Positions 2,889 to 63,718 of a stretch of 64,000 bases of DNA are shown piece after piece. This DNA comes from Gavia stellata (Eukaryota; Chordata; Aves; Gaviiformes; Gaviidae). Position 1 is the first letter of the stretch, and each line of letters opens with the position of its first letter. The stretch spans positions 1,464,155 to 1,528,154 of the forward strand of contig NC_082596.1 of assembly GCF_030936135.1 (NCBI RefSeq), written 5' to 3'. The position numbers and the translations under genes were made by a program. Under the pieces are notes generated by a model. It ran no database searches, was not told the origin of the DNA, and worked only from the letters and a program-made list of their open reading frames with translations.

Positions 2889-5155
<2,267 letters not shown>

Positions 5156-34552: not shown

Positions 34553-37500
34553 ATGGCGCCGCTGAGCGACCTCTACCAGCTCACCATGGCCTACGGGCAC
34601 TGGCGGGCGGGGCGGCACCGCGCCCCCGCCGCCGCCGAGCTCTTCTTCCGCCGCGGGCCCTTCCGCGGGGGCTTCGCGCTGAGCGCCGGTCTGGCCGAGG
34701 GGCTGCGCTGCCTCCGCGCCTTCCGCTTCTCCGCCGCCGGTGCGTGGGGACCGGGGGGGGGGGACAGGGACAGGGGGGCTTACGGTGGGGGTGAGGGACA
34801 GCCTTCGGGGGGGGACTTGGGGGACATGTGGGGGGACAGAGGCAGCCTTCAGGGGAACCCCCCAGCGGGACCTGCAGGGGACAGGGACAGCTCACAGGGG
34901 GACTGAAAGGGGACAGGGGGATCCCTCGGGGGGACCTGGTGGGGACAGGGACATCCCTCAGAGGGACCTGGTGGGGACAGGGACATCCCTCAGAGGGACC
35001 TGAGGGACAGGGACATCCCTCAGGGGGACCTGGTGGGGACAGGGACATCCCTCAGGGGACCCTGGTGGGGACAGGGACATCCCTCAGAGGGACCTGGTGG
35101 GGACGGGGACATCCCTTAGGGGACCCTGGTGGGGACGGGGACATCTCTCAGAGTGACCTGGTGGGGACAGGGACATCCCTCAGGGGAACCTGGTGGGTAC
35201 AGGGACATCCCTCAGAGGGACCTGGTGGGGACAGGGACATCCCTCAGGGGACCCTGGTGGGGACAGGGACATCCCTCAGAGGGACCTGGTGGGGACGGGG
35301 ACATCCCTTAGGGGACCCTGGTGGGGACGGGGACATCCCTCAGAGTGACCTGGTGGGGACAGGAACATCCCTCAGGGGAACCTGGTGGGTACAGGGGGAT
35401 CTCTCAGAGGGACCTGATGGGGACAGGGACATCCCTCAGGGGGACCTGGGGGACAGGGGGATCCCCCAGGGACCCTGGTGGGGACAGGGACATCCCTCAG
35501 AGTGACCTGGTGGGGACAGAGGGATCCCTCAGGGGACTCTGGTAGGGACAGGGACATCCCTCCAAGGGACCTGGGGCAGCACAGAGACAGCCCACAGAAG
35601 GACCTGAGGGACAGGGGGACCCTTCAGCGAGAACTGGTGGGTTGGTGGGGACAGGGACATCCCTTAGGGTGAGAGTGGGACACCTTGGGGGGGACAGGGA
35701 CATCCCTCAGAGGGACCAGGAGACCCCTCAGGGGGACCTGGTAGGGACAGGGACATTTTTCAAGGGGATCTGGAGGGACAGGGAAGGCTAAAGAGCGACA
35801 TCCCCCAGAGGGACCTGGAGGACAGGGGGACTCTTCAGAGGGACCTGGGGGGCAACAAGGGACAGCACTCGGGGAAACTTGGGGGACACTGGGACACCCT
35901 CCAGGAGGACAGTCTCCCATGCACAGTCCCTCGGAAGGGACTTGGGGGGGGCCATGGTGCCCTCCAAGGGCTGGGAACACCCCTGCCCGCGGGCTGTCAC
36001 CTGCCCCTGGCATAGGGGGATTCACTCCCTCCAGCCCCACCCTGTGCCATGGGACCACGGCTCGGGGGACCGCCCGCCCCGGTGCCCGCTGAGCTCTGTC
36101 CCCGCAGATGTCGCCTACCTGCGCTCCGTCCTGCCCAGCACCACGGAGGACGCCTTCTTCGATTACCTGGCCACTCTGGATGCCTCGGAGGTGACAGTGT
36201 CCGCCGTGCCGGAGGGCTCCGTCGTCTTTGCCAGGGTGGGACATGCTCGGTACCCTCCCCTGCTTCAGAGGGGCTTTGGGGCCATCAGCATCCATGTCCC
36301 CAGGGAGAATGGGGATGTCACTGCCCGGCTGTCCCCGCAGGTCCCGTTCCTGCAGGTGAAGGGGCCACTGCTGGTGGTGCAGCTGCTGGAGACCACGTTG
36401 CTGTGCCTGGTCAGCTATGCCAGGTAGGGACGTGTCCTGCTCTGGTCCCCCAGCTGCTGGGGACCATGTCTGTCTCTGCTGTGCCAAACCCTCTGAGTCT
36501 CGTGGTGGTGTGGTCCCTGCTGTGTCCCTGTGCATTGTCTGCGGTAGAGCGGAGAGGGTCCCGGAGCCCCCCCGGCTCTCAGCCCGGCTTGGTGTGACCT
36601 GTCCCTTCCTCTCCCAGCCTGGTGGCCACGAACGCCGCTCGCTTCCGACTCCTTGCTGGCCCAGACATGAAGCTGATGGAGATCGGGCTCCGTCGCGCTC
36701 AAGGGCCGGACGGTGCCCTTTCAGCCTCCAAGTACTCCTACATCGGGGGTGAGTGCTGCCCCGTGGCGCCCCACGGCTCTGCGGCCACGCCGTCACCTGT
36801 GACCCCCCGCCCCGTCCCGCCTCGCAGGCTTTGACTACACCAGTAACGTCCTGGCGGGGAAGCTCTACGGCATCCCAGTGCGCGGCACCATCGCTCACTC
36901 CTTCATCATGTCCTTCACCTCGCTGGAGGAAGTGCAGCCCCGGGTGAGCGTCACCACGGGCAGGGGATGGGGATGGGACGCTCTGCCTGTGGCCACACTC
37001 CTGGTGCCGTGGAGGATGCCACGGGGTGTGCAACAGCCCTGTCCCCCGGGCAGGAGCTGCCACCGCTGGCGGGAGGAGAACCAGTGGATCTCCCAGCCCT
37101 GGCCGAGTCGTGGCTGCGGCGGGTGTGTGAGCTGCTGCAGACCCCCCCTGAGAAGGCGAACCGCGGTGAGCTGGCCGCCTTCGTGTCCTACGCCATCACC
37201 TTCCCGCAGGACTTCCAGGGGCTGCTGGACACATACTGCGTCAGGAGGTGAGGAGGTCGGGTGCCCTCGGGGTAGATTTGACACCATGGCGGAGGGGACA
37301 GACGTGTCCTTCCTTGCTTGGTGGCCTTGAAGCAGGGACGTTTCCACCTGGTAGCGTTCCCGTGCTTTGCTGTTGCCTGACGCAGGGCTTGGACCCGCTG
37401 CTGGACCTGCCCTGGGTCCCTGTCCCACCAGGCAAGGGACGCTAACCCCTTCCTCGCCCATGCCAGGAGCGGCTTGCCGAACTTCTGTGCCGTGGCGCTG

Positions 37501-44170: not shown

Positions 44171-47100
44171 TCATTTGTAAAGTGCCATCTTCTTGCTCTG
44201 GTACATGTACATGTAGGCATCGCAGAAGAGGCGCTTGGCCACTCCATCCATGTCCCGAGGTTGCTCCAGGGCCAGCACAGCCAGTGGCAAGTCCAGGTAT
44301 TTGGCAACTTCAGGGCACAGCGTTACCGTGGGAATGTTGAAGCCGTTTTCATCACCTAACCCAGAAAGAAGGAGAAAAGTCCAAACCAGGTCCCAAGGGA
44401 TGAGTACCTACGGCTCAAGCAAGTACCATCACACTCAACAGTAACGTAGTGCCTTAACTGAGAGAGGTGGAAGCCAACAACAAAGTGGGGAAGGGCAGGA
44501 GAACGGTCCTTGCCCACAGGGCGGCCAGTCCCAGCTAGCTCGACAAGTCCCTTATTTGAACACAGCCAGAGGATGAAAGCACTGGGAGGAACTCACACCT
44601 GCTTGGCCTGGCCATACTCTTCTCTGGGGTCTACTTAAATGGTCACTGTTGGAAGCCGGGTCCAGAGAGAGCCTAAATCATGTAGGGGGCTTCAGAGGAA
44701 AAGGCAGACTGACCAGCGCCTACGCAATGAGCGTTGCAAACCCTCACAGTGCCCACCGCGCAGCGCCCGGCTGCGATCAAAGCTTCGAGCCCACCACCAT
44801 GTCCTCACCATGCCTGTCAGCCATGCTGTCGAAGAACATCCAGTGTTCGTTCTCGGGGCCGTATTTCACAAAGGAGACGTAATGACTGGTCTCGATGCAG
44901 AGCACTGCGAAGAGCTCCATCTTCTCGCGAGGGATCTGCTGGCTGCCCCGGGGGCTCCGGCTGTGAAACTCTTCTGGGACGTGCAGCCTAGTTGGCTTGT
45001 GCGTTTTGCGTCGGTAGTGGGAGTGAACCTGAGGAGAGACAACGGGGTGGCACTGCTGAGTGGGCAGAACTGAACCCAGCCTGCCAGAAAGAGGAGGGTG
45101 CAGGGGTCAGACGCCCAGTTTATCCCCACTGATCTGACTCCCATGGTCCCTGCGTGCCAGGGAAAGGCATTGCGTCAACAGGCTGGCAGCAAAAAGGTGA
45201 GACGGGAGCTTGCCGCCCTCCAAGAAAGGCCAGAAAGCTGTAGGAATGCTCCTCGTGAGACAGTGAGAGGGGCCCAGCACACCCTCTGTGCATGATCGGT
45301 GCTTATTTAGGCTCTGTGGAAGCAGAGGGTTCAATAATACGTGGCACCTAAGGCAGCTCAAGCAGCTGACACAGGCGGTGGGACTGATGCTCAGGAAGCG
45401 TCCCCTCTGTGCCCCAACCTGAACGGCTGCAGGGACAGCAGGGGAACCGCGGGTATTTTGGGGGGTTCAATCTGCTGTCAGCCAGCAAGGCAGATTTCGT
45501 GAGCAGCCAAAGAAAATGAATACCTGTCTGGAGCAGGAGCTGCAGAACTGCTTGAGGCCCATAGCTGCGAATACCTTGTCCTTGAAACACTCCGAACACT
45601 CCAGGGTGGCGACGTCGCCGCACACACAGCACTCCCTGGGACCTGCAGGGGCAACAGGGGTGAGAGGATGTGTCTTCTCTGGATCTCACCTGAAATCCAA
45701 CTTGTCTTGCCAAAACTGGTGTTCAGGGAAGAAGAATCACACCATGATCCCACCTTACATCTGCTCACAACCCAAAGAGGCGAGACCTGCCACCTGGTTG
45801 CTCACAGTCCCAGCCCAAACAACTTACTGTCAAGCAGCAGATCTGTTATATCCAGCTCCAAGGAAGGAATGATTTTGCTGAACATTTTATATTCCTTCCC
45901 AAAACGCGGCATTTGGATAATGAAGCAAGATGGGATCTGGGAAAAGAAAAGGCAAACGAGTCACCCTGCCAGAAGAGACAAGCCCCAGAGACTCTTCTCT
46001 CCATATTGCTGCTGGGAGTAAAGACTTTCTGCTCGGGTTATTCACAAGACAAGATGGCAAAGCATATCCCTCTTCCCAGGTCACGCTCAGATTCCCCAAG
46101 ACCTTTCTCAGGTTGTGGCCACGTATCCTGCTGCTTCGCAGTGTTGGATATAAGACATACTAGACCCACCGCACACTGGCAGGCAGAGGTACGTTGGAGG
46201 AAGCAAGAAAGAGGCAGCAGATAGTAGCGTAGGCGGAAGGTAGCTGGGCTCACCTCCACTAGCTTCAGATTGGAGGACAGGAAGGAGTGTTCCACTAACT
46301 GCTGCACGTCGGGAACCACCAGATCCTCCTGTTTGTCCATAAATATCTGGTAACAGTAACAGTCCTGCTCCTTCTGGCCTCCTGACCTGCAAGGAGTGGT
46401 CACGGGGCTTGTTTACGTAGTGCCACAAACATCTGAGCTCCCAGAGGACATACCAGTTTTGTCCTGCAAGAGCTTCTGCGCCCAAGGCACCAAGGGCTGC
46501 TTGGTGCAACGCTGACACGAAGCACTTTTTCCACCCAGAAATACTAAATATATGTCGTGAGAGGAGGATGCAACTACCATCTCCAGTCTCATTATCCCTC
46601 CATAGCATCACATCCTGCTCCTACGAGCAAAACTCAATTTCCCCTCGTCGATGTAAATATTAAAAGACACTTCAATATTTTTTAAATCAACTGCACTACG
46701 GCACAATCAGCAAACTCCTTCTCAGATGAAAGATCTATTTATAACTGCGCATACAAAAGCCAGAGAGCACAACTTGCTGCATTCAAAAGGTGAGTTGTGT
46801 GCAGAAGATCTCCCACAACCCCTAGATCCCTGAGCCAGCAGAGAAAGGATTTCCTTCAGATGATCCTCTGCAGGGGAGCTGCAGTACAGAGCCGGCTTTG
46901 TGCTCAGCCTTTCCGAGTACTCCACGATCTATGGCTTGACTGACGTCTCAACAAAGGAGCACAGAAACCGAACAATCCCCTTCTATGCTCCCAAACAGCA
47001 CAGTTATTTTTGGCTTCCTTCAGCCTCTCATCCTCTTTGTAGAGTCCTGAAAAACTGGGACTGCATCCATGGACTGCCTGTTTGAGAGGCTGCAGGACCT

Positions 47101-50100
47101 GAGCCAGCCTGACAGTCTGGACATCCCAAACGCATCCAAAGGCTGTCAAATAGTGCTGGCTCTGCAATGAAGTTGGACACTACATTTCTCAAACTACCGC
47201 TGGCTCTCCCTAAGGATGAGACTAGGTTTTTTATCATCATTTTTGAAGGTGGCACCTCCAGGGAGAGTTTAGAAGTGTCTTTCCCTGGACGCGGCACCTG
47301 GGACAAGATTACACCAAGCAAGATCACACGGACAGCAGAGAGCAGCTGCACAGAACTCACTGTGTCTCCAAAGCCTCGATGAAAAGGTGTTAAGCAACAC
47401 CCAGTAATCGTGAGGGGGATAACTAACGAGCCTGGCCTGGGTAAATTGTATCGCTTAGATATGGAAACTTACTGCAGTTTCAGGAGTGGCTCTATTCCCA
47501 GGATCTGATGCATGATGAGATTGAGGAACTCCTCAGGATCTGGAAGGTCAGAGAAAAGTGTGGGTCACACCACACCAGGAACGCTGCCTTGCCCCACTGC
47601 ATCCAGAAGGCAAAAGCTGCCACAAAAACATGAGCCAGCATTTTGTGAACCTGGGATCTCCTCTTTTATTCTAGGTAAGGGGATGGTTGGGCTAAAGCTG
47701 AGAGCATTTGGTTAATGCATAAATCCTAGGGTGAGCATGAAAAAAAACAAACCAGCCCTCAGATACTGCACTCTCACAAGCCGGGCTATCACAGCAACAC
47801 TGTCTCAGAGACCTTAACGGATAGTTGCTGCTAACATCAAAAGTATAAACTCAAAGAGAAATCAGGGACAGCTATGGAAATTCAAGAAACTGAACAGTTA
47901 AACTATCCTGGGCTAAAATAAATATACAATAGTAAAAAGCAGAAGTGTTGTTCACTGAAAAGATACCTGCTGTTTCTGGAAGAATCAATGCCATTTGTTT
48001 AGTATCCAGGTACTTAGAGGTTTTTGCTGTGATATTTGGCATTGGTGTAATCTGTTTCCTTGTAAACTACATGGGGCCTTGCTGTGCATGGACGGGAACG
48101 TGGCGATTGCAACCACAGATTGGTGGGTTTCAGCTGTAGGCGTTTTCGGTCTTATTTTAACCAGACTAATGTCTTTGAGGAACCTCAAATAACATATCAG
48201 AACTCCAAGACAAGTTGATCTTGGCAGAATGATAAATCAAGCTGGATTCTAGCAGGGACATCAGGGATGGACTTATCAGGGTATAACTCAAAGTATAAAG
48301 GAAACTTCCCTTGTTTAAATTCTGTTCACACAGATCTTCCTCTCCCCTCCTGGCAACAGCTGCCACCAGCAATTTCTATCTTTCCATCAGACTTCAGGAC
48401 AAATTTCAGTTGAAAAGCCTGTAGTGTTTTAAAAGCTGAAAGTATTTTACATGTGCATTTTTACATAAATGAACAGCACAGCAGGCATATTAATGCACGT
48501 GCCTGGGAGAAGCATACAATTAAGTTGTCAGCCTGGTGCCTGGGTGAGGCGGCACACAGCGAAGCAGCCCAGAGAAGGCCCCAGAGAGCACATTACCTTT
48601 CTCAGCGTTGGTAAAGCTTGAACACTGTCCCTTTTCAGTTAGCTGCTCCCTAAGGTGCATCACACTCCTAGCCCTGACGAAGCCAGTCCTAGAAACAAGA
48701 AGCAGCTGCAGATGATCTCTCCAATGTATTAAATCAGTGAATGGTTTGGGTTGGAAAGGGACTTTTAAAGGTCATCTAGTCCAACCCCCCTGCCATGGGC
48801 AGGGACATCTCCCACTAGATCAGGTTGCTCAGAGCCCCATCCAACCTGACCTTGAACAATTCCAAGGATGGGGCATCCACAACTTCTCTGGGCAACCTGG
48901 ACCAGTGTTTCACCACTCTCATCATAGTTTCTTCCTTAGCTCCAACCTAAACCAACCCCCTTTCAGTTTAAAACCCTTGCCCCTTGTCCTGTCACCACAG
49001 GACCTGGTAAAAAGTCTCTCTCCATCTTTCTTAGAAGCCCCCTTTATATATTGAAAGGTGACAAGAAGGTCTCCCCAGAGCCTTCTCTTCTCCAGGCTGA
49101 ACAACCCCAACTCTCTCAGCCTTCCTCCACAGCAGAGCTGTTCCAGCCCCCTCATCATCTTCGTGTCCCTCCTCTGGCCCCGCTCCACCAGGTCCGTGTC
49201 TGCCTTGTGCTGGGGACCCCAGAGCTGGACGCAGTGCTCCGGGCGGTCTCACCAGAGTGGAGTAGAAGGGCAGAATCCCCTCCCTCGACCCGCTGGCCAC
49301 ACTGCTCTGGATGCAGCCCAGGAGACGCTTGGCTTTGTGGGCTGCGAGCGCACATTGGCGGCTCATGTCCAACTTTTCATCCCCAAGGCCTTCTCTGCAG
49401 GGCTGCTCTCAATCAAATCTCTGCATCACAGAACGCCCCAGGGTTGTACTTCTGCAGCTAGTGCCCGGACACTGGTCTTCAAGAAAAATGCTAATGTCTT
49501 ATGTTCAGTCAGCTCTCCATGCCTGTCTTCCACACCTCTCTAGGGAGGAAGAGGAAAGAACCTGGTATCTTTGACAGAAAGTCCAGAGAATTTAGCTTTC
49601 ATGCCATGGTCCTCCCTCATCCAGCCTGGCACTGCGTACTGCCTTTGGGACTAACTGCTGATGAAAGCAATGCCATTGCTTCCCCAGCCCCAGGGTTCCT
49701 CCACAGAGGTGGTCTCAACCACGGGAATCCCCCTTTCATCCTTTCACTGCAAACTACAACTCACAAGGCTTCCTTCTGAGCAGGAGAGACTCATGCACAT
49801 GCAGTAGGAGCTGTGACGGTGTTACAGCCTGGGGAAAGGAACAACTGGAAGAGGAACCCGATATGAAGACCTCTGGATGTGCCTGGCAGGAGAAACCCTC
49901 CAGGTAACCCCCTTCCCTCAGTGACAAGTACCATCTGGCAGGGCAGCAGAGAAGGTATGAAGGCAGAGGGATGACTTCCAAGATTCCCACATACTATACT
50001 CACTTTCGGAGGGGATTAACAATCTCATCCCGCAGAATGTTCTGGACGTTCCGGTCACACAGTGGGAAGGGCTTGAAGAGCATGGAGTCCAGCACGGACG

Positions 50101-53100
50101 TACAGGAGAAAAGGCTGTGAAAAGGGAGTGCTGTGTAACTATGATGGGTTTGCAGCAGTAGTTAGAACCAAACCGTTGTGCCTAGTGACAGTCGGTGGCT
50201 TTTATTTTCAACAGTCCATGCATGCAATTATAGAAAGGTGAGTGACTGTGCATCTCTGCAGTGAGATAAACCGTATCTGGTTTAATGAACACCGGTAGTA
50301 AGCAAGGAAACAGCTCACAGAGAATGAAATCTCATACTTTGCAGTCAAAACTGCTCACGACGGGGGCACCACTGAGTCTTTTCCTCTCCAAACAGTGCTG
50401 CACAGTGAAGCTGTGACCTCCTGGGTGGTTTCTTTGAAATGTTTCCAGCCATTACCTTGAGTGATAGAGTTGGTACGGCCCAAGTCCAGAGAACTACGAT
50501 CTCTCACCGCCCTGTGTGACAGACACATGGGTACCTTAGGTACTCACGAGGGGTATTTCAGGGCCTGAGAAGCTACCAGATTAGAAAGGAGATCAAAAAG
50601 CAGCAAGCCTCGAGGCTGCGTCTCCACAGTTATATTCTGCTCTATACCAGGTAGGTTTCCAGCCACCTTGGAAGTGCAGGGAGGTGCTGCAGTTTAGGGC
50701 TCTGCCCAATTAAAAAAGCACTCATTTAACGAAACGGCACCACCCAAGCAGGTCCTTACCTGAAGAGAGCTGCATCCATATAGCAGGAATTACAGTGGCC
50801 TTGGATCCCCTTCATCCGCCCTCGCAGGACACGCACCGCTGCCTCGTTCCTGAGGGGAGGAAAACTGTCTGGAGCCTGTGGAAGAACTTCTTGCCCTCCT
50901 GCAAAAGAAGGAACAGAAGCAACTCCCTTTAGCTTCCCACCTCGTCTGGGTCAGCTCTGCCCTTCCCGACACCCCACAGCTCTGCTCAGAGGTTGACACA
51001 CTGATCTTCCGCGGTGCTCCTGCTGGGACTCAACCGTGCCGGGATGAAGACTTGCCTCTTTAGTAATTCATCTACTGGAAATGGAGACAAAACCAAACCA
51101 TCTCTTCTTCACCAGAGCCATGCCCTAGCAATCCATACCGCCTCCGCCATCATTATGCCAAGTACAACGAAGACAAAAATAGCTGCAAATGAGCTGGTGC
51201 TGTGTTATATCAAGCTTGGGATCTCTCTGGTGACAGACCTGTTCCCTTGCTACTGGGGTCACAAACAGGCAACTGTGCTTTAATAGCCTCATCCTGCTGG
51301 CCTGTCATCTCCTTAAGCTTCAAAGGTGGCTTTCTCAATCTGGTCTTTTCTCGTTTCTTTAGCATTCTCCCCTTGTAATACAATCCCCTCTCTTCAGCAT
51401 GTCCTGAAGACATTCTTCCTTGTCCCCACTCGCAGTTTTTGGGCAGTCCCTACGGGAATCCTGTCTTCTCGTTTACAGTGATCTCATTTAGAGTTTCTAA
51501 ACGGCTAGTTCACACTGTCTTCTCTGCTCTGGAGGAATTTCTTCCCATCCAAATGAAAATACCGACCCATTCTTCTCCGCATCTTCTTGCGGACGTCTTA
51601 CCGTCACATCAAGCTCTACGTTAAAATTGATTTAATCCTCTCTCCCTTTCCAAGCTCCCTCTTATTTCTCAGCCCCCCGGTGCAACACCGTTATCACCTG
51701 ACATCCTGGCCATGGGCTTGAGTTACCCCCTCCAACTCTCCAGAGCCACGCGCTTGGTCTGTTTGTATAACATTTAAGATACGGTAGCTAGGCCAGGCCC
51801 TATAGCTAAAACACTTGTCCACATTCAAACCTCAGTTACACAAGACCTTTTCTTCTGCCCTGAAAACCGCAGGCGGAAGAGCCTTGCCTTGCTTACAGCA
51901 TTCACAATGCCTTACAAAGACTGTTGCTCTGGACTTGTGGCTCTGCCAGTCTTTTTTGAGTGGTGCCCACTGACAGGACGAGAGGTAACGGGCACAAACT
52001 TGGTCATAGGAAGTTCCATCTAAACATGAGGAGGAACTTCTTTCCTTTGAGGGTGGCAGAGCACTGGAACAGGCTGCCCAGAGAGGCTGTGGAGTCTCTT
52101 TCTCTGGAGATATTCCAAACTCGCCTGGACGCATTCCTGTGCAATCTGCTCTAGGTGACCCTGCTCTGGCGGGGGGGTTGGACTAGATGATCTCCAGAGG
52201 TCCCTTCCAACCCCTCTCATTCTGCGATTCTGTGACTTCTGTCCTCTGTCACCCCACAATATTTCCTGCCAGCTTGCCCTTCTCCAACACATCCACGCCA
52301 CCAAGGCCTCATTTTTAGAGCCACTCACAACAGGTTGCCCCATATTCAATGCCCTGGTCTACATTATCCCTGTATTAAATTACTTACCATCTCTCACACT
52401 TGTGGGACATTCCCTGTAAATACCACCACACCAACCTCAGCATCCTTAAAACTGACATCTTTTGGAACACTCAAAGAAAGTGAAGAATATCAAACCGCTG
52501 ATTAAGACACTTCACACGAGGCTTCTCCACAGTGTGCCTTGTCCCAGCACGGCACCGTCTTCCCTCTCCCCAGAGAACTTACTGTAATCCACGAGGCTCA
52601 GGTCACTGTTGTGCGAACACTGGAAGCGAACGTCAGGCTGGCAGGACTGCAGCTTCACGAAGAGGCCGCGCTTTGGAGCGCAGTGGAAGTAGTATTTGCC
52701 CAGCCATTCACCAGCAGTGACCCCCTTATCTTCATCCTGGGAAAAGAGCATTGAGGAATAACATGAGAGCAGGCTTTTCACGAATTAGGTGTGATTCCCC
52801 CATAGGGCCTTTTAATATCTTAAGAGCTGTGTACAAGTTTGGTCCCGTTTTGTTGGCTGTTTTCATTTATTCTGGTTATGTTTTGAAGCTATTGATGCCG
52901 CTTGTAGGATTCAGGACTATTCCGTCCCCCGTTCCAGTAACATTGCTCTTGAAGGGAGCAAACCGACCCTTGGAATCATGCCACAGGCTCTCCTCCCCAG
53001 CCCAAGGGAGGGCACAATTCTGTGCTTGCCCTCACAGTTCACGCTCTGACACGTCAGAGGCCCAGGTCAAGCTGTGAGATACGCAGCCACGAGCTGAAGG

Positions 53101-55334
53101 TCTTCAAAGAGAAGGGAAGAGCAACTGAGACCTGCCCGTTCTGATATACAATCTCACAGCAGGAAATATTTTGCTTCTTACCAGTTCAACTCCTGCCATT
53201 TTGTGCTTAATTTGGGGCAGGTAGCCCAACCAGCGGATGATTCCTGAAACCTGATTTCCCTTGTCCAAGGTGATCTGGACCATGGAGTTCACCTCCAGGG
53301 ATGAATTCCCACTTTCACACTCCTCACCACCCTCGCTTATCTCTTGTTTCATTTGGTTTGGGTGTCCCAAGTCCATGTCAGACTCGAACGGTGAAAATAA
53401 ACCTAGGGGGCAATACGAGATGTCAGCTGAGGTAGGAAGTCAACACCTAATGACAGACACCTCTGGATCTCACCTAATACCAGGTCTATTTTGAAATTAT
53501 AGACCGCACCAAAGACACAAGGTGTAATTCTCAGGACATATTTCAGTGATACGGCCAAGCTGGTCTAACAGGCTGAGAGGGGACGATCCTACGCCTCGTT
53601 TCCCCACTCAAGGCTGTGCACTCCAGCCTCTTGCTGGCCCTGGAGCTAATCCAGCCCTTCACAGAGCCGTTTCAGACTACTGAAAAGGCAGCGGGGGAGG
53701 CTATTTCCACATTTCTTTTCTGCCTTTAGTGAGATGAATCAACTCAGTGAAGAGTCTAATGACGCCTCCCCTCGGGCTGGCCCAGACAGCTGCACAGTGT
53801 CTTTTGATGGCAACAGAGAGATTCCACTAATTTCTCGTCCTGTCCAATGACTCACACCATCGCTGCTGGCATCTGTGACTTTCCGAGTTTGTCTGGCATC
53901 AGGATGAGGCTCCTGCTCCACCTTCTACAGCTAAATTAAAGACTCTTTAACCAGTGGTGCCTTCTCCCCTAGGAAATACTTCTGCGCTGCAATCACACCC
54001 TCTTTTCTTCTTCCCGATAAATGGGGAGACTCAGCTTTAGTTGCCTAATGCAAAGAATTTTGTCCAGAACTTGAGGCTTTTCTATGGACCTTCTCTGCCT
54101 CCTGATCAATTAAGCTGGGACTAAGCTGAAACTTTTGTTGCACTTTCAGCTCATCAGTACCCTGCGGAGAAGAAATAAATGCTAAATCCCCAGGAACGTA
54201 CATAGAGCAGACACATCTGATGATAACCTACTTTGCAAGCTTTCCTTCACGACAGAGTCCATAGGGATTTCTCTGAAAATGTCAGTTGTTCCTTCTTCTT
54301 CCTGAAAGGAGAGAAAAATCTATCAGCTAAATGCTTTATCAGACATAAGGCATTCCTGGAACACAAACCAATTTTTCGAACAGTCCTGGAAATTTTGCAT
54401 GTAACCTCATGTCCCTTTTGGACATTCCTTCTACTTTTCTTTAAGGCCCCACTGTAATATAGTTTAAAAAAACAAAACAGAACAAGAAAAGGCAGCAAGA
54501 CTGTTCTTACCGGACAAACTTTAACGAACCATTGGGTTCCCTCCCTGTAAACTGCCATCGCTATTCCTTTTGTGAGGACCTCGTCCACGTAGAAGCTAAC
54601 TGCATCTCCCACTTTCACAGGAACCCCCTCCTCTGTGTCCGCTTTTGGCTTCTGTTTCACATAGTCGTTGTCCAACACGGGAGTAAACTGGACTCTGCTA
54701 AATGGTAGGAAGATCCCGCAGTTCCGCTTACACTTGAAATACTCAGTGCCGTGATAAGATCCATCGCTGCGCCCTCTGTTTTCACCCTCACCCTGAAAAA
54801 AGCACCGGAAAGGCATGTTATATACACAGACATAAAGGGAAAATAAGCAACTTACTTTCTTGGCTACTTTACCTGTAACTCCACCCCGAAGAAGAACGGA
54901 GACAACGCAGCCGAAACGTTTTTGTAAATGCTCCCGATGTAGCGGATGATACCAGGGAAATGTTGCCGCTCAACCTCCACCATCACGTTTTGGCCTGGCA
55001 CGGCTCGCAGAGCTGCTTCAAGGCTCAGCCTCTCCAAGAAGTAGTTCAAACGTTCATTGTGGCTGCTGACGGCCAGGAGGAAGACCGCTGACTCCTCACG
55101 CACAGGCTGAAGGATTTCTACGTTTATCGTGACGGTGGAGCTGTCATCCAGCATGACGACTTTCAAGAAGCAAGCTGGGGGCCTGTCGTCGGAGAAGTTG
55201 CGCAGGTAATTTCTCTCGCTGCAGAAGCACATGTTCCCAGCTTGGAAGTACTTGCTGCCATAGGCACAGTCTTCTGTCAGGATGTAATAGCAGTTTCCAT
55301 CCCCTGCTGAAGGCAGGAGGCTGGTCATCGTCAT
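44171..55334 (-). CDS. CYLD-like deubiquitinase (paralogue of CYLD)
   Basis: Ubiquitin C-terminal hydrolase of the CYLD (USP67/C67) family, whose known member trims Lys63 and linear chains in NF-kB signalling. Coding exons, 5' to 3': 55334-54873, 54792-54511, 54301-54232, 53402-53182, 52736-52583, 50898-50760, 50114-50004, 48688-48597, 47539-47473, 46386-46254, 45936-45828, 45642-45524, 45028-44809, 44355-44171. Total 787 aa with consistent phases (human CYLD 956). CAP-Gly 1 at about 110-200 ([15 protein letters not shown]), CAP-Gly 3 at about 300-372 ([28 protein letters not shown]). USP Cys box [16 protein letters not shown] with catalytic Cys435; His box [12 protein letters not shown], His702; FFDSMAD, Asp720. 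B-box zinc region from about 617 ([19 protein letters not shown]). C terminus [17 protein letters not shown] closely matches CYLD. Triad intact. The second CAP-Gly looks reduced and the linker is short. Identity as paralogue, not CYLD itself, is inferred from divergence and location. Confidence 0.92.
48739..49385 (-). repeat. CR1 LINE copy in CYLD-like intron
   Basis: Same strand as the host gene. Typical 3' end (GTGAATGGTTTGGGTTGGAA on the plus strand) followed by the standard CR1 C-terminal region up to [14 protein letters not shown]. Very similar to the copies at 1-905 and 38.4-39.3 kb. Lies between coding exons ending near 48.7 and 50.0 kb. Confidence 0.92.
51961..52240 (+). repeat. CR1 LINE 3' fragment in CYLD-like intron
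   Basis: Sense-strand CR1 end: [20 protein letters not shown]-like start, [20 protein letters not shown], a stop, then GGTTGGACTAGATGATCTCC and the terminal ATTCTGCGATTCTGTGA units. About 0.28 kb, well preserved at the 3' end. Confidence 0.93.
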
Positions 55335-55387
55335 TCCCCTGGGTTGTGAGAAAGGAGAGAGTCACACCAGTGAAGACACATGCACAG

Positions 55388-55680
55388 TATCACCGAAGAA
55401 TTCAGGCTGGAAGAGGTCTCTAGCCCAGCCCTGCGCTCAAAGCAGGTTGCTCAAAGCCTCACCCAGTTGAGTTCTGAGCATCTCCGAAGGCAGAGATCCC
55501 ACAGCCTCCCTGGTCCTTTGTTCCAGCCTTTGATCACCCTCACAGGGGAAAAGAAAAAATTCCATCTAACCAAGGTTTCCCACATTCCTGCTTGTCCCCG
55601 TTCCCTCCTGTCCCCTCCTTGTGCGTCCATGGGACAAGTCTGGCTCCGTCTTCTCTACTAAACCCTCCTGGTAAGAAGTT
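55388..55680 (-). repeat. Diverged CR1-like fragment upstream of the first CYLD-like coding exon
   Basis: Plus-strand ATCACCGAAGAATTCAGGCT then GGAAGAGGTCTCTAGCCCAG resembles an antisense CR1 3' end of an older subfamily, followed by TCCCACAGCCTCCCTGG and a LEKRR-type region. More diverged than the other copies. Confidence 0.65.
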
Positions 55681-57590
55681 GCACAGAGCAGCACCTTATC
55701 GGTCCTGTTCTCTACAACACTGTACAGCCACAACGGCGGCAGTAAATTCCACCTCCTGCTTGCTTTTCATACTTACTTGCAGGAGTTGGGCAAAGCTAAA
55801 TTCCGCCTTTTAAAAATTCTCTAAAAAGGGAGTTCTAGTCCGCAGCTAGAGCTCTTCGATGTTGTGTTAAAGCACGTTAATATTCAAAACATAGGCAAAG
55901 CACAGCACCTACCACTTTACTATGCTGAGGCACTGAGATCACCATCTTTCAAAGCAAATACATTAAAAGGAATTCAAATATCTGGAATCAGAAGTACGTT
56001 TTTGCACAAAAGTTCTAGTTCAAAAGTTCTAGTTCAAATTCTCATGCAATTTACCCCTCCGCATCTCACTTTTGACGACACCACGCACAGCCAGGACCCA
56101 GACATTTCATTACAACCTAAAAAGGGGGTGAATATAGAAACTTCTTCCTGCAGGTGGACAGAAGTGGTTGGCGCAACCTGGCCAATACAGAGAAAATAAG
56201 AGATGCGCCCGTTTCTAAGCCACGGAGGAAATTAAGGAAGAACAAAAATGTCTCCACTATGGGCTACTTGGTAGACGCTTCTTAAAAGTCTGAAGTGGAG
56301 AGAGGAGCAATTGAGCAGATGCAATTAAGGGAAGTAGAAACACACTCAAGGCATTGCGGCAGGAAGCACAAACGCAGCTGCTCACAAGAACGATAAACGG
56401 GTGGGCTGGGAGGAAAACAGGCAGAGCCTGAATAGAAAGGCTGTGCAGAGCTCAGCAAGGAGCAGGGCAGCGTTACTGGGGACTTCACTGGAGATGAATA
56501 TCAAGAGAGCTCATTTTTTAAAGTATTAGGAAAAGATAAATCCCTGCTTGTGTTGGAAAAAAGAAATCACATGATGGCTGATCAGATCCTGGAGCTTTCC
56601 TTTGGGCTCATCGTGGCAGCTTCCTACAGGAGCCATCTCCTTTTCACTCTTATTTTTTAACCTTAGCGGGTGGGAAGATGGCTCGGAGACCTGATCCAAA
56701 TGCTGCTGTGCTGCTTTTGGGCAACGCTCCTTTGCTGCAGCTGAAGGTCTGGTCTCAAAATGGAATAACCTCCCAGAAAACCATGGGTGTCCTCAAGTAG
56801 CATCCACTTGGGTCTGCCAAGGCAGCTAATTTCACGTGTATAGCCAGAGATTCAAGAACCGAACGCGCGGCAGCGAGGCAGGGCCCTGCCACGACGGTGC
56901 AAACCACGCTCGCGTTCTTCCTTCTTTCTACCGAGGGACTCCTGCCAGCAGAACGCCAAATCTGCAGGGAAGCCAGCGCAATTCACTCCGGGATGAGCAC
57001 CTCGAAGTCACGGGGAACTAACGGGGGTACAGGGCGAGCCCCTCTGCTTTGCAATAAGCAAGTTGGGAGGCAACAGCAGGCTGCAGAGGTGGATGAAATC
57101 CCGCGGAGCGCAGCAGTTCCCTTCTTTCCCATCCACGCAACTTGCTGCTGATGTTTTATAACTCTGCCGGGGATGCAAAAGCTTGAAATTCTGTGATTTT
57201 TTAAAGGATAGAATTAAAGAGTAACATTATGTCCCAAACCCCCCTGTTCAATCTTCCATTTTCAGGACCTCGGTTTTATTTTACTTTGTTTTTTTAAAGT
57301 TCTTTCTCCACAAGGATTAGAATAAACCTCACCGTGCTTTACACCCTGCCAAAAGAGGAAAACCAAGAATAAACCGTTTTCCTCAACAAAACCAAGAATA
57401 AACCGCTTTCCTCATCAAAACCAAGAATAAACCATCTCTTTAACAACAGATTATATGCAATTCCCTCCCAGGTTAATAGAAATAAAAGCACATCCAGACC
57501 AATGTGCGATATTTGGGCTTGTGATGATTTAAACGGCGCTGAGACGCGATGGATAATGCTGAGGGGAACCTGGAAAGCGATGGATGATTC
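55681..57590 (-). other. 5' intron of the CYLD-like gene
   Basis: No coding sequence recognised. Contains two tiny tandem repeats: a 16-bp unit AAAAGTTCTAGTTC twice near 56010-56038, and the 33-bp unit listed separately. Confidence 0.5.
57358..57440 (+). repeat. 33-bp unit, about 2.5 copies
   Basis: AAAACCAAGAATAAACCG followed by TTTTCCTCAAC, repeated near 57358, 57390 and 57421 with few differences. Confidence 0.8.
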
Positions 57591-57599
57591 AAATTAAAG

Positions 57600-58085
57600 C
57601 GAAATTAAAGCAGTAAACTGAGGCCGGGGTGGGGGAAGGCTCTCCAGGGGGGTCTGTCCCTGAGGTACCGGGGCCCGGGCAGGGGCTGAGAGGGCCCCGC
57701 AGGGGACGGGGGACGCCAGGGAGGGGGAAGGCGCCGCTGTGGGACGACGGTTGAGGAGGGGAGGCCGCAGGGGGAGAGGCCGGGGGTGTGGGGGGGGTAA
57801 TCCCGGCGCGGACCCCCCCCCGGCCCCCCGCTCTCACCGTCTCCCGCCGCCGCCCCGGCCCCGCTCTTCCGCCTCAGGAGACGCCACCACAGAGCCGCGG
57901 GCGGCGCAGCCCAGAGCGGCGCCGCCACGCGCCAACGCTTCCGGCCCGCCCCTCTGCCGCCGGCTTGCCAGCCAATAGGAAGAGGCCAGGGGCAAGGCAG
58001 GTAGCCAGTGAAGGGGAAGGGGCGGGTCTCGGGGGGCTGCGCCGCCCCGCCCCCTGCTGGGCGCTAGGGGCGGCGGGAGGCTCGT
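57600..58085 (-). promoter_or_regulatory. CpG-rich promoter and 5' UTR exon of the CYLD-like gene
   Basis: GC-rich, CpG-dense block upstream of the minus-strand gene. A good minus-strand donor (GGAGACG|GTGAGAG) ends a probable non-coding exon at 57838. A CCAAT box lies on the plus strand at about 57971-57975. The exon would splice to the acceptor just before 55338, four bases upstream of the start ATG. The transcription start was not located. Confidence 0.65.
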
Positions 58086-58104
58086 CGCGGGCTGCGGGAC
58101 GTGT

Positions 58105-58920
58105 ACGGAGTCCCCATAGCCCCATGGCCCCATGGCCCCGTGTCCCCATAGCCCCGTGTCCCCATAGCCCTGTGTCCGAATAGCCCTGTGTCCCCGTGTC
58201 CCCATAGCCCCATGGCCCCATGGCCCTGTGTCCCTATAGCCCCGTGTCCCCATAGCCCTGTGTCCCCATGGCCCTGTGTCCCCGCGTCCCAGTGTCCCCG
58301 TGTCCCCATAGCCCCATGTCCCCATGGCCCCGTGTCCCCATAGCCCCATGTCCCCATAGCCCTGTGTCCCCATAGCCCTGTGTCCGAATAGCCCTGTGTC
58401 CCCGTGTCCCCATAGCCCCATGGCCCCATGGCCCTGCGTCCCCATAGCCCTGTGTCCCCATAGCCCCATGTCCCCATGGCCCTGTGTCCCCATAGCCCCG
58501 TGTCCCCATAGCCCTGTGTCCCCATGGCCCTGTGTCCCAGTGTCCCTGTGTCCCCATAGCCCAGTGTCCCCATAGCCCTGTGTCCCCATGGCCCCATGTC
58601 CCCGTGTCCCCATGGCCCCGTGTCCCCATAGCCCTGTGTCCCCATGGCCCCATGTCCCCATGTCACCATGGCCTTGTGTCCCCATAGCCCCGTGTCCCCA
58701 TGGCTCTGTGACCCTGCATCCCCATAGCTGTGCGTCCCCATGGCCCTGAGTCCCCATGGCCCTGTGACCCTGCGTCCCCATAGCTGCATGGCCCCATAGG
58801 TCTGTGTCCCCCATAGCTGTGTCCCCCCATGTCCCCATGGCCCTGTGTCCCATGTCCCCATTGCCCTGTGTCCCCATAGACCCGTGTCCCCATATACCCG
58901 TGTCCCCATGGCCCCCCATT
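58105..58920 (+). repeat. 16-bp minisatellite, left part
   Basis: About 50 units of the type CCCTGTGTCCCCATAG or CCCCATGGCC. It begins at the edge of the CYLD-like CpG region and stops abruptly at a CR1 insertion. Long stop-free frames here are repeat artefacts. Confidence 0.92.
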
Positions 58921-58924
58921 GCCA

Positions 58925-59586
58925 GCAGTGTGCCCAGGTGGCCAAGAAGGCCAACGGCATCCTGGCTTGCATCAGAAATGGTGTGGCCAGCAGGAGCAGG
59001 GAGGTGATCGGGCCCCTGTACTCGGCGCTGGTGAGGCCGCACCTCGAATACTGTGTTCAATTTTGGGCCCCTCACTACAAGAAGGACATTGAGGTGGTGG
59101 AGCGTGTCCAGAGAAGGGCGACGAAGCTGGTGAGGGGTCTGGAACACAAGTCTTATGAGGAGCGGCTGAGCGAGCTGGGGTTGTTTAGCCTGGAGAAGAG
59201 GAGGCTGAGGGGAGACCTTATCGCTCTCTACAACTGCCTGAAAGGGGGTTGCAGAGAGGTGGGTGTTGGTCTCTTCTCCCAAGTGACGAGTGACAGGACA
59301 AGAGGAAATGGCCTCAAGTTATGCCGGGGGAAGTTCAGGCTGGATATTAGGAAAAAGTTCTTTACTGAGAGAGTGGTGAAACACTGGAACAGGCTGCCCA
59401 GGGAGGTGGTGGAGTCACCCTCCCTGGAGGTGTTCAAGGAACGTGTGGATGTGGCATTGTGGGATGTAGCTTGATGGACATGGTGCTGTGTGGTGTTGGG
59501 TGGGTTGTGGCTTGTTATTGTTGTGTGGCGTGGGTTTTGTGGTTGTGGGTTTTTTTTTTTTTTTTTTGTGGGTGGTTTTTTTTTGT

Positions 59587-59623
<37 letters not shown>

Positions 59624-59697
59624 AGGTTGGACTCGATGATCTTACAGGTCTTTTCCAACCGTACTGATTCTGTGATTCTGTGATTCTGTGATTCTGT
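58925..59697 (+). repeat. CR1 LINE copy inside the minisatellite
   Basis: Best-preserved CR1 in the window. An open C-terminal reverse transcriptase frame runs from [20 protein letters not shown] through [16 protein letters not shown] to [17 protein letters not shown] and a stop near 59474. The 3' UTR carries a T run (59550-59567), another T run, and a long C run (about 59588-59623). It then resumes with GGTTGGACTCGATGATCTTA and ends with four ATTCTGTG-type tail units (59666-59697). The flanks on both sides are the same minisatellite. Confidence 0.95.
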
Positions 59698-60370
59698 GTC
59701 CCTGCATCCCCATAGCTGTGTGTCCCCATGACCCTGTGTCTTATGTCCCCATGGCCCTGTGTCCCCCATAGCCCAGTGTCCCCATAACCCCATGTCCCCA
59801 TGGCCCTGTGACCCTGCATCCCCATAGCTGTGTGTCCCCATGGCCCTGTGTCCCGTGTCCCCATTGCCCTGTGTCCCCATAGCCCCATGTCCCCATCACA
59901 CTGTGTCCCCATGGCCCTGTGACCCTGCGTCCCCATAGCTGTGTCGCCCCGTAGGTCTGTGTCCCCACAGCTGTGACCCCCATGGCCCTGTGTCCCATGT
60001 CCCCATTGCCCTGTGTCCCCATAGCCCAGTGTCCCCATAGCCCTATGTCCCCATGGCCCTGACCCTGCGTCCCCATAGCTGTGTCCCTCCATGGTGCTGT
60101 GTCCCGTGTTCCCATTGCCCTGTGTCCCCCATAGCCCAGTGTCCCCATAGCCCTATGTCCCCATGGCCCTGTGACCCTGCGTCCCCATAGCTATGTCCCC
60201 CCACGGCCCTGTGTCCCATGGCCCCATAGCCCTGTCCCCCCAGAGCCCTCTGTCCCAACAGCCCTGTGTCCCCATGATCCTGTGTCCTGCATCCCCACGG
60301 TGCTGTGTCCATTGTCCCTGTGTCCCCACACCCCTGTGCCCTGTGTCCCCCTGGCCCTCTGCCTCGTAGC
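59698..60370 (+). repeat. 16-bp minisatellite, right part
   Basis: Same unit family as the left part (TGTGTCCCCATAGCCC, CATGGCCCTGTGACCC), becoming more degenerate after about 60200. It also contains longer-range duplicates, for example near 59700-59890 and 60060-60190. Confidence 0.9.
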
Positions 60371-61592
60371 CCGTGTCCCCTGGCCTGTGTCCTGTGTCCC
60401 CTCCCCGGGTGGCCCTGCCTGCCACACCACACACATCCACAGCCCCAAAACCACGCACCCCCTGGGTGTCCCCACCACCGCTGGGACACGTCATGGGGAC
60501 AAGGGTGACACACTGAGCTCAGGGATCCAGGACCACTGAGCCACCGCCCTGGGGACATCACCCACCCTGGGGACATTGGCACTGGGGGCAGAGCAGGGGG
60601 GAGGATCAGAGCATGGCAACAGGGTATAAATATTGGCTAAATAGATATATTTTCATACAAAGAATACACAGATCCCCCCGCCGGGACGCCTCGACCCCGG
60701 GGGGACACCCCAAGATGTCCCCAGCCACCGCCCCCGCCGGGCACCACCTCTGTTGGCTTTACTGGCAGGATCTGTCCCGGTCCCCAGGGTTTGGTGCCAA
60801 CGCTGGTGTCACCTCGGGGACATCCCTGTCCCCTCTGGGGCCACCTTGGTGCCCGCGTCTGCGCGGTGCCTGCTTGGGGCACCCCTTCACCGGCCACCCG
60901 GCCCCGCGGGGCACCCCCAGACCTGGTCCCCCACTCCCTCGTGCCCATCCCGGGGGCATGTCCAGACATTTTGGGGTCCCCCCTGTGCCCTAATACTGCG
61001 GCTGGTACAGACCCACCCCCCCGTGCTGTATGTACAGGCTGAATAAAAGAAGAAAATACAGATATTTATAGTGGGGGGGGCAAAATGCCCCCCTACCCCC
61101 CCAAAAAGTGTCCCCCGCATCCCCATCCTGGTGCCTCATTGCCAGTCAGTCCTGTCCCCAGGATGGAGGTGGCCGGTCCTGCCCCATCCAGGGCCGGCTG
61201 AGCACCGGTGCCTCAGTTTCCCCATCGGTTGTGGGGTTCATCACCCCTCCCCACCATGGGGTGGTGGGACACAGAGGACGTGGGGTGAAGAGGAGCTATG
61301 GTGGCCACCCCGTGGGGACAGGGATGCGGCCACCAGCTCCAGGGGACATGGGACGAAACCAGAGGTGCCCGGGATTTATGCTGGAGCATCCCACCTCCTG
61401 CCTCACCCCGATGGAGAAATGTCACAGGCAGAGCTACCCGAAGTCCCCTTTCGTCCCCAAATCTGTCACACCGCTATCGCCCAGCCCCGGGCATGGGGGG
61501 GTCCAGATCCGGCCACCCCACCTCCCTTTGCAGCAGGAGAGGAGGTGGCGGGGGGGGTCCGCAGCGGGCTGGCGGGCTCGTGTCCATCCAGC
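60371..61592 (-). other. 3' UTR and flank of the PLC gamma-like gene
   Basis: No gene recognised. Lies downstream of the minus-strand stop at 61593. GC-rich with G/C runs. The canonical poly(A) hexamer was not found on the minus strand. Confidence 0.45.
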
Positions 61593-63718
61593 TCAGTTGC
61601 GTTTGGTGACCATTTGCCGGTCCCTCTTCTTCTTCTCCATCAACCTGGTGAGGAGCAGGGTGGTGGCCTTAGGGACCCTCCTGAAAGGGACCTCCTGAAG
61701 GCACGGGGAGGGGACACTCACTTGCGGTTGCGGACTTCGGTGAGCTCCATGAGCCGCTCCTGGGCCGCCCGTAACTCATCGAGGCGCTGCTGGTAGCGGG
61801 AGTCACAGCCGTTGGTGCGCTCATAGCTGGAGACTTGGCTGGAGAGCTCGCTGGCGCGGTCCCGTAGCTGCTGGATGGACGAGTAGAGGTTCTCCTCGTC
61901 TTCCTCCTGCTCTGACAAAAGGCTATGAGGCTGGTGGGGTGGACAGCTGGGGAAACTGAGTCACGGGGTTCCCCAAGCTGCCTGGACCACCTGCCTTGGC
62001 GTTGATGATCTCAATGTGGATGAGGAGGGCGGCGAGCTCCAGGTCCTCGGTGTAGCTGTTCTTCAACGGCACCGACCGGTAGCCTGGACACAACACGATG
62101 ACATGAGCTCAGCCCCATGGTAGGGTCTGAGCCCCTCACCATGGCCAGATCCCCAAGGAAATAATGATGATGATGATTGCAGGGGGGTTGGACTAGATGA
62201 CCTTTAAAGGTCCCTTCCAACCCAAACCATTCTATGATTCGATGATGATGATGATGATTGTGTGGATAGAGGGACCATACCTGTTTTGAGGCCCTTGACG
62301 GGGAAGGTGGCTTGTGCCAAGAAGTTGGGGTCACTGAACATGTCCTCCTCATATACCACAAAGCGGAGGAAGGCGAACTCGGGGTTGTTGATGTCGAAGA
62401 CGAACTGCTTGAAGAGCCAGACGGGGTTGAAGCCGTTGTCGGCTGGGGGGGGGCGAGGAGAGAGAGGGGGTGATCAGAGCTGGGCAAGACACATGGACAT
62501 CGCCGTCATGGCACCAGCACGTTAGTGGGAGATGCCTGTCCTCTTCACTCCTCCATGAAACCCAGCCCCATCACTCACATGTCCAAGAGGACCCCAAAGG
62601 GCACAGTTAGGGCTGTCCCAGCGTCCCCACCTGTCCCCGGGGTGGAGAGGATGAGTGGGAATGTTACCCGCATGGACCCTCACCTACGACGTCTGTCTTG
62701 TTCTTGCTGTTGTCGTACTCGGAGCCGCACACCTCCACCTCCACGAAGGGGCACACGATGCTCCTCCCATTCTTGGGTAGGTGCCGGGCACCGAGGATCT
62801 GCAGAAGGAAAGGAGGGTGAGGTCTGGCTATGTCAGACGAGGAAGGACTCTCCAGGGCTTGGCTGTTTTAGAATCATAGAATCATTGAATGGTTTGAGTT
62901 GGAAGGGACTTTTAAAGGGCATTTAGTCCAACCCCCCTGCAATGAGCAGGGACATCTTCAACTAGATCAGGTTGCTCAGAGCCCCATCCAACCTGACCTG
63001 GAATGTTTCCAGGGTTGGGGCATCTGCAACTTCTCAGGGCAACCTGGGTCAGTGTTTCACCACCCTCATCGCAAAAAATTTTGGGTTTTTTGGGCTTGCC
63101 AAAAGCTTCATGGCCATAATTAGCCACATCACACCTTATTTATAACCTTGGACCTGTTTTAGTTTGATTTTAGCCGTATCCACCAAATTATTTTAAAAAT
63201 GTTTGCTGCGTTTGTGCTGTGCTCAAGAGTCAGGTGCCTACAAAACAACCTGTCCCAGCTCTAACACCAAAATTACCCAAGGGTTGGGTAAGGTGCTTCT
63301 GGGCTTATTATCTACTTTACCCTTCACCTTGCTCTCGCTCAGGTTGGGCTCAGCTCTGTGCAATTATGCAGTTCTCCCCTGGGAAAAATGATGTTGCAAG
63401 TGGAAAAAAAAAAAAAACGAAGAGATCATGGGGTAATGATCTCCATGGAGCAAATATGGGGCTGAAACATGTAAAAACCACCCCCAGTTGACCCAAAACA
63501 GAGGATTAAGCAAGCCCCCATCTTGATGGTGACCACCTTAGGGTGGACTTGCCGTCCTCGCCCACTTGCCTGCAGCTGCACCGTGATGGGCTCCACGATC
63601 TTCAGGCTGTTCTTGTCGAAGGGGTCAAACGTCTCGTCCCTCATGATGTCAGGCTGCAAGACGTAGCCGCTGCGGCCGCCGAGCATGAAGAGCGCCTGGT
63701 TCAGCTGCATTGGCTTGT
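61593..63718 (-). CDS. Phospholipase C gamma family, C-terminal part (gene continues off the right edge)
   Basis: Last six coding exons: 63718-63570, 62798-62684, 62442-62281, 62083-61991, 61911-61722, 61644-61593 (252 codons plus stop; phases agree). It begins inside the PLC Y-half ([35 protein letters not shown]). A complete C2 domain follows ([59 protein letters not shown]), then a tail predicted as coiled coil. The enzyme class cleaves PIP2 to IP3 and diacylglycerol at the membrane after tyrosine-kinase signalling. The tail combines [11 protein letters not shown], like PLCG2, with [15 protein letters not shown], like PLCG1, so this may be a third gamma paralogue. The catalytic X box and SH2/SH3 region lie outside the window. 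The intron after 63570 uses a GC donor. Confidence 0.9.
62172..62248 (+). repeat. Very short CR1 3' end flanked by GATGATGAT repeats
   Basis: GGGGGGTTGGACTAGATGAC, then CTTTAAAGGTCCCTTCCAAC and a TTCTATGATTC tail: only about 75 bases of a CR1. On both sides stands the same run ending GATGATGATGATTG. Intronic in the PLC gamma-like gene. Confidence 0.85.
62870..63085 (-). repeat. CR1 LINE 3' fragment in PLC gamma-like intron
   Basis: Plus-strand AGAATCATAGAATCATTGAA, then GGTTTGAGTTGGAAGGGACT and the conserved region up to CACCACCCTCATCGC, is an antisense CR1 3' end of about 0.2 kb. Confidence 0.92.

Follow-up and report, generated by a model that had tools for sequence, protein, structure and literature searches.

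A third phospholipase C gamma gene beside a second CYLD in a bird genome: a probable ohnologue pair at a locus resembling human 8q24.3

Where do a CYLD-like gene and a phospholipase C gamma (PLC gamma) gene that lie side by side in the genome of the bird Gavia stellata come from, given that the PLC gamma family is taught as having two members? The two genes occur in a stretch of 64,000 nucleotides (contig NC_082596.1; the whole stretch is called the window here), which corresponds to C3:1464155-1528154 of an assembly of 1.32 Gb in 1185 contigs, C3, C15 and C20 being our labels for contigs of that assembly. An additional 100 kb past the window was read for the remainder of the PLC gamma gene. 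We refer to the two genes as CYLDL and PLCG3, labels coined in this analysis. Our results establish that the locus carries a third complete PLC gamma isozyme, with its regulatory residues intact, beside an intact second CYLD. It is highly likely that both originated as ohnologues in the early vertebrate genome duplications and have been kept on a chromosome matching human 8q24.3; the date of the duplication and the loss in mammals are inferences.

CYLDL is read from a start codon at 55334 to the end of a stop codon at 44171, which is the only stop in the spliced gene. All 13 of its junctions are GT-AG with fitting phases, in agreement with an earlier reading of this DNA made from the sequence alone (the sequence-only reading), which had described its exons as phase-consistent; the 70-base exon at 54301-54232 is called from splice signals and phase alone. 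Pfam detects two CAP-Gly stretches and one UCH peptidase domain, the latter scoring 448 bits against human CYLD (2vhf). Alignment to human CYLD shows that the catalytic triad (C601, H871 and D889 in human numbering) is retained, as the sequence-only reading had held. In the B-box, 6 Cys and 1 His are kept of 8 zinc positions, the eighth position number being no His in human CYLD either. Identity to human CYLD is 341/837 residues, a count that was taken, like the peptidase letters in the CYLD tree below, from the aligner's CYLDL model with its unlikely small linker exons; that model was replaced for the final 787-residue protein and for the CAP-Gly and linker comparison.

CYLDL resembles CYLD in having CAP-Gly 1 and 3 and a B-box peptidase, in which 212/370 residues equal those of the CYLD found elsewhere in this genome. 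The last eight exons measure 123, 92, 67, 133, 109, 119, 217 and 182 bases in CYLD and 111, 92, 67, 133, 109, 119, 220 and 182 bases in CYLDL, with identical phases. The proteins differ in length (787 residues versus 956), and in CYLDL half of CAP-Gly 2 is missing and the linker is mostly absent or unalignable. The linker of CYLD is where the TRAF2-binding and phosphorylation stretch resides. Thus the description of CYLDL as a complete CYLD paralogue holds for its 14 exons, open frame and protein, but not for the full set of three CAP-Gly domains or the linker.

PLCG3 is located upstream of CYLDL on the same strand, which bears out the claim of a PLC gamma gene next to the CYLD paralogue. Its last five exons fall inside the window, and the gene runs on to about 80,525 in window coordinates (C3:1544679), with no N across its span. 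The full model of 1261 residues has the same domain order as PLCG1, namely PH, EF hands, X, a split PH around two SH2 domains and one SH3, Y and C2. Pfam recovers X and Y, two SH2 stretches, SH3_1, a PH half and the PLCG EF-hand models, which constitutes the gamma-specific array between X and Y. One intron, after the exon at 63718-63570, is of the GC-AG type (CAG|GCAAGT), and the final splice junction was placed by eye, a few bases off the aligner's choice. When compared with human PLCG1, 903/1272 aligned residues are identical, a count that includes the unreliable first exons and last small exon of the aligner's PLCG3 model. We also checked 17 catalytic, SH2, tyrosine and C2 positions, of which PLCG3 is identical to human PLCG1 at 16: His335, Asn336, Glu365, Asp367, His380, Glu414, Lys462, Lys464, Arg586, Arg694, Arg696, Tyr771, Tyr775, Tyr783, Tyr1003 and Asp1165. 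The seventeenth (taken as Tyr1253) was misnumbered, being Arg in human PLCG1 too, and is uninformative. The conserved set thus comprises both catalytic histidines (335 and 380), the calcium and phosphate ligands, the regulatory Tyr783 and the phosphotyrosine-binding Arg of both SH2 domains.

The exon pattern of PLCG3 is close to that of PLCG1, with most exon lengths shared. Given this, and the correspondence of the last eight CYLDL exons to those of CYLD in length and phase, the two genes are DNA-level copies; a retrocopy origin was rejected on the exon phases that CYLDL has in common with CYLD, and a pseudogene on the open frames of both genes. Chance similarity is excluded by the peptidase score to human CYLD given above and by the 552 of 710 residues at which PLCG3 matches rat PLCG1.

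A search of the whole genome with the CYLDL peptidase returned 16 matches: 8 in CYLDL itself, 6 at C15:7175032-7181669 and a further 2, both weak, at other sites, with no CYLD match on C20 among them. The C15 matches belong to a second CYLD (C15:7175032-7195310) that agrees with human CYLD at 839/953 residues, and CYLDL is therefore not the single CYLD of this genome. A corresponding search for PI-PLC-Y gave 33 matches, and among the 30 listed those on C3 (PLCG3), C20 and C15 are of the gamma type. The C20 gene is PLCG1 (852/976 residues as in human, some unreliable short first exons included) and the C15 gene is PLCG2 (608/742 residues, read from the X domain onward). Four other loci with next-best or gamma-like Y cores proved on comparison with solved structures to be one PLC epsilon on C9 and three of the PLC beta type, of which C17 has one and C23 has two; the remaining PLC loci among the 30 either score under PLCG2 and PLCG1 or give weak alignments to gamma models. 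The possibility that the window might hold the only CYLD and PLCG2 of this bird therefore fails, and the data support the view that CYLDL and PLCG3 are old paralogues distinct from its ordinary CYLD, PLCG1 and PLCG2.

How old these paralogues are was addressed with unrooted maximum likelihood trees of four or five sequences, using only those columns present in all (710 for PLCG and 301 for CYLD). Across the five PLCG sequences, rat and bird PLCG1 are identical at 646 columns, PLCG3 and bird PLCG1 at 555, PLCG3 and rat PLCG1 at 552, and PLCG3 and bird PLCG2 at 390. The best tree places PLCG3 outside rat plus bird PLCG1. Nesting PLCG3 with bird PLCG1 is rejected by the approximately unbiased (AU) test (p = 4.7e-6) and also by the Kishino-Hasegawa and expected likelihood weight tests, and nesting it with bird PLCG2 is rejected with an AU p of 8e-39. 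There are 196 columns at which the two PLCG1 sequences agree, the two PLCG2 sequences agree and the two types differ from each other; PLCG3 sides with PLCG1 at 133 of these and with PLCG2 at 21, and shows a different residue at 42. Tyr771, which PLCG3 shares with PLCG1, is replaced by Ile in PLCG2. Its tail mixes a PLCG2-like 'LYSS..QLR' with a PLCG1-like 'RYQQ'. PLCG3 is by these comparisons nearer to PLCG1 than to PLCG2, in a three-gene order that is unrooted. For CYLD, 301 peptidase columns from human, zebrafish, the bird and CYLDL give identities of 0.967 between human and bird, 0.87 between human and zebrafish, and 0.60-0.62 between CYLDL and the others (62% to the CYLD of the same genome). 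The best tree again places the new gene outside, in this case outside human plus bird CYLD, on a long branch.

Position in the genome provides an additional line of evidence. Of four gene families tried, all four fit a paralogon spanning C3, C15 and C20. Maf_N has three matches genome-wide, at C20:12309294 (0.31 Mb from PLCG1), C3:1745031 (0.22 Mb from PLCG3) and C15:17248265 (1.2 Mb from PLCG2). NHR2 has six matches that form three genes, one on each of the three contigs. Seven ZHX matches include three over the cut-off, two on C3 and one on C20 about 15 kb from the PLCG1 exons, and the four below it (C37, C44, C7 and C3) were set aside. The TOP1 type has 12 matches, comprising five exon matches each at C3:2015386-2020243 and at C20:12058133-12064874 (the C20 group lying some 47 kb away from those PLCG1 exons that were read), a weak one on C15 and one below the cut-off on C8. 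We take the human arrangement to be one in which PLCG1 lies by ZHX3 and TOP1 and near MAFB, PLCG2 lies near MAF and shares 16q with CYLD, and MAFA, TOP1MT and ZHX1/2 are on 8q24. This bird genome repeats the arrangement, with a PLCG gene present at the third site as well. Because the MAF, NHR2, ZHX and TOP1 families all fit, the C3 locus is best read as the 8q-type position in a paralogon left by genome duplication, one that fits human 8q, 16q and 20q.

Two side observations concern these families. The weak TOP1-like match on C15 (C15:19498659-19498772, about 1.1 Mb from PLCG2) covers some 38 residues resembling one TOP1 exon followed by a stop, with an identity over 28 residues of 64% against the C20 gene and 57% against the C3 gene; it may be what is left of a third TOP1 gene or of a retrocopied one. 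Additionally, with only three Maf_N matches in the genome, NRL was not seen in that search, and birds are not known to have NRL.

Several explanations compete with an ohnologue origin. The names of the two genes rest on similarity, and before the genome was searched nothing spoke against an ordinary CYLD and PLCG2 (or PLCG1) having simply been relocated to this site by rearrangement. We now give this practically no credence, as the ordinary genes are found elsewhere and share 82-88% of their residues with their human counterparts, well above the figures for CYLDL and PLCG3. It is also very improbable that one or both genes are decaying and no longer functional, a view to which the losses in CAP-Gly 2 and the linker of CYLDL lend some weight. 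Both frames are nevertheless open through all exons with their catalytic residues kept, and of 340 columns that are invariant across the two PLCG1 and two PLCG2 sequences, PLCG3 has the common residue at 327. Another rival is a segmental duplication of later date, within reptiles or birds, with rapid evolution afterwards. It would account for the long CYLDL branch and its statistically insecure position, and among the PLCG tests it is permitted by the Shimodaira-Hasegawa (SH) test alone. This is improbable given the AU rejection of PLCG3 within bird PLCG1, the short PLCG3 branch (0.09, as opposed to 0.16 + 0.05 on the PLCG1 side) and the closeness of PLCG3 to the Maf_N gene on C3, which parallels that of PLCG1 and PLCG2 to theirs. 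Finally, PLCG3 could be a true ohnologue and CYLDL its neighbor by chance, having arisen from CYLD in an unrelated duplication, whether older or younger. The wide spacing of CYLD and PLCG2 on C15, the lack of a CYLD match on C20 and the setting of a cyld-like gene in fish, described below, all favor such an accident, which we regard as unlikely because CYLD with PLCG2 on C15 and CYLDL with PLCG3 on C3 is what a common paralogon predicts.

A number of observations weigh against an ohnologue origin of the pair or limit how far it can be taken. The SH test allows PLCG3 beside bird PLCG1 (p = 0.17); a bird-lineage or an amniote origin of CYLDL goes unrejected over the 301 columns (AU p of 0.085 and 0.086, respectively); and all trees are unrooted and small. 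The four paralogon families were picked for their presence on human 8q, 16q and 20q. C3 is 105 Mb long, and sharing it is therefore weak evidence unless distances are short. On C15 a distance of 11 Mb separates CYLD from PLCG2, so that an ancestral side-by-side arrangement is conjectural. In two reports, teleost cyldl has Kank4, Adcyap1r1b and Dmrt2b as neighbors (PMC9095985) and a fish cyld-like gene is found together with pik3r3b, adcyap1r1 and mast2 (PMC4372039). The teleost gene is CYLD-related as is CYLDL but, when compared by name and neighbors rather than by sequence, differs in its setting, which is not 8q24.3-like (PMC9095985), and it may represent another paralogue or one that has moved. 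When all of this is considered, the alignments support PLCG3 not being of bird-lineage origin (by the AU test, with the SH test dissenting), while the CYLD tree is suggestive of an old split without reaching significance. The expectation that neither gene falls inside the bird CYLD and PLCG clades is consequently borne out for PLCG3 by the AU test and for CYLDL only in the best tree. The sequence-only reading had also called the pair the 8q-type copy of a CYLD-PLCG2 block. Two old paralogues in the C3/C15/C20 paralogon agree with this, whereas the CYLD tree lacks significance and the greater likeness of PLCG3 is to PLCG1, not PLCG2, which makes "copy of the CYLD-PLCG2 block" just one wording.

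The neighbors that place the locus were described earlier as TIGD5, EEF1D and NAPRT (Table 1). EEF1D was located by its C-terminus with a sequence probe. NAPRT pieces include one above the Pfam cut-off, and their NCBIfam matches are all under that library's cut-offs. The third neighbor is an intact, domesticated Tc5/CENP-B-type transposase frame according to Pfam, and its name TIGD5 comes from the sequence-only reading and from no search. Big minisatellites flank CYLDL on both sides (32838-34406, 34859-35641, 58110-58915 and 59700-60401), with periods from 16 to more than 100 bases, and yield long spurious open reading frames (ORFs). CR1-like frames are also among the ORFs of the window.

Table 1. 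Coordinates of the CYLDL and PLCG3 exons and of neighboring genes, in window positions
Feature	Position	Strand	Basis or content
PLCG3, last five exons	63718-63570, 62798-62684, 62442-62281, 62083-~61991, ~61911-61718	-	Y-domain end, C2 domain, tail
CYLDL, 14 coding exons	44171..55334	-	Spliced model of 787 aa, no internal stop; Pfam CAP_GLY and UCH
CYLDL exons 1-7	55334-54873, 54792-54511, 54301-54232, 53402-53182, 52736-52583, 50898-50760, 50114-50004	-	
CYLDL exons 8-14	48688-48597, 47539-47473, 46386-46254, 45936-45828, 45642-45524, 45028-44809, 44355-44171	-	
CYLDL exons for CAP-Gly 1 and shortened CAP-Gly 2	54511..55334	-	Pfam, alignment
CYLDL exons for CAP-Gly 3	52583..53402	-	Pfam, alignment
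CYLDL exons for ubiquitin-specific peptidase with zinc B-box insert	44171..50898	-	448 bits, triad kept
NAPRT exons	36023..36949	+	Pfam and NCBIfam nicotinate phosphoribosyltransferase families; locus-placing neighbor
EEF1D C-terminal exons	30012..31054	+	Located with a sequence probe
Single-exon ORF, 685 aa (TIGD5 of the sequence-only reading)	2892..4946	-	Pfam DDE_1, HTH_Tnp_Tc5, CENP-B_N

Among the open-licence papers that our searches listed, none was seen to discuss a third PLC gamma, and a search of the text of PMC12954441 and PMC3238295 found neither PLCG nor CYLD. A breast-muscle transcriptome study names PLCG1L among chicken lineage-specific genes (PMC10591418). Matched by name only, this could correspond to PLCG3 in chicken, and an annotation of the gene may so already exist. 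If so, then the gene is transcribed in chicken muscle and the "lineage-specific" label is wrong.

What the two proteins would do can be proposed from their conserved residues. The SH2 domains of PLCG3 most likely dock on phosphotyrosine, phosphorylation at the Tyr783 position would most likely relieve a block imposed by the C-terminal SH2, and the X/Y barrel is predicted, again as the most likely outcome, to split phosphatidylinositol 4,5-bisphosphate (PIP2) into inositol trisphosphate and diacylglycerol. Because the residues for PLCG1 activity and autoinhibition are kept, PLCG3 is expected to be receptor-coupled, the natural expectation being a receptor- or immune-receptor-driven PIP2 hydrolase. 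CYLDL is most likely an active CYLD-type deubiquitinase that would trim Lys63- or Met1-linked chains. Its docking is most likely altered by the losses in CAP-Gly 2 and the linker, such that it would be placed and regulated differently from CYLD.

We consider it reasonably likely, though well short of assured, that vertebrates began with at least three PLC gamma genes and two CYLD genes, that birds and perhaps other non-mammals keep all of them, and that mammals lost the linked pair together. PLCG3 would fill the slot that MAFA and TOP1MT, by their place in the human 8q24.3 region, lead one to expect, and this slot is a clean test case for reconstruction of ancestral vertebrate chromosomes. A third PLC gamma would matter for bird-based studies of these enzymes, such as those in chick embryos and DT40 B cells. 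If the ohnologue reading is true, then birds have one more linked pair of components for receptor and NF-kappaB signalling, and the joint loss of this pair in mammals, if that too is true, would be a natural experiment that tests how dosage affects signalling through receptors and ubiquitin.

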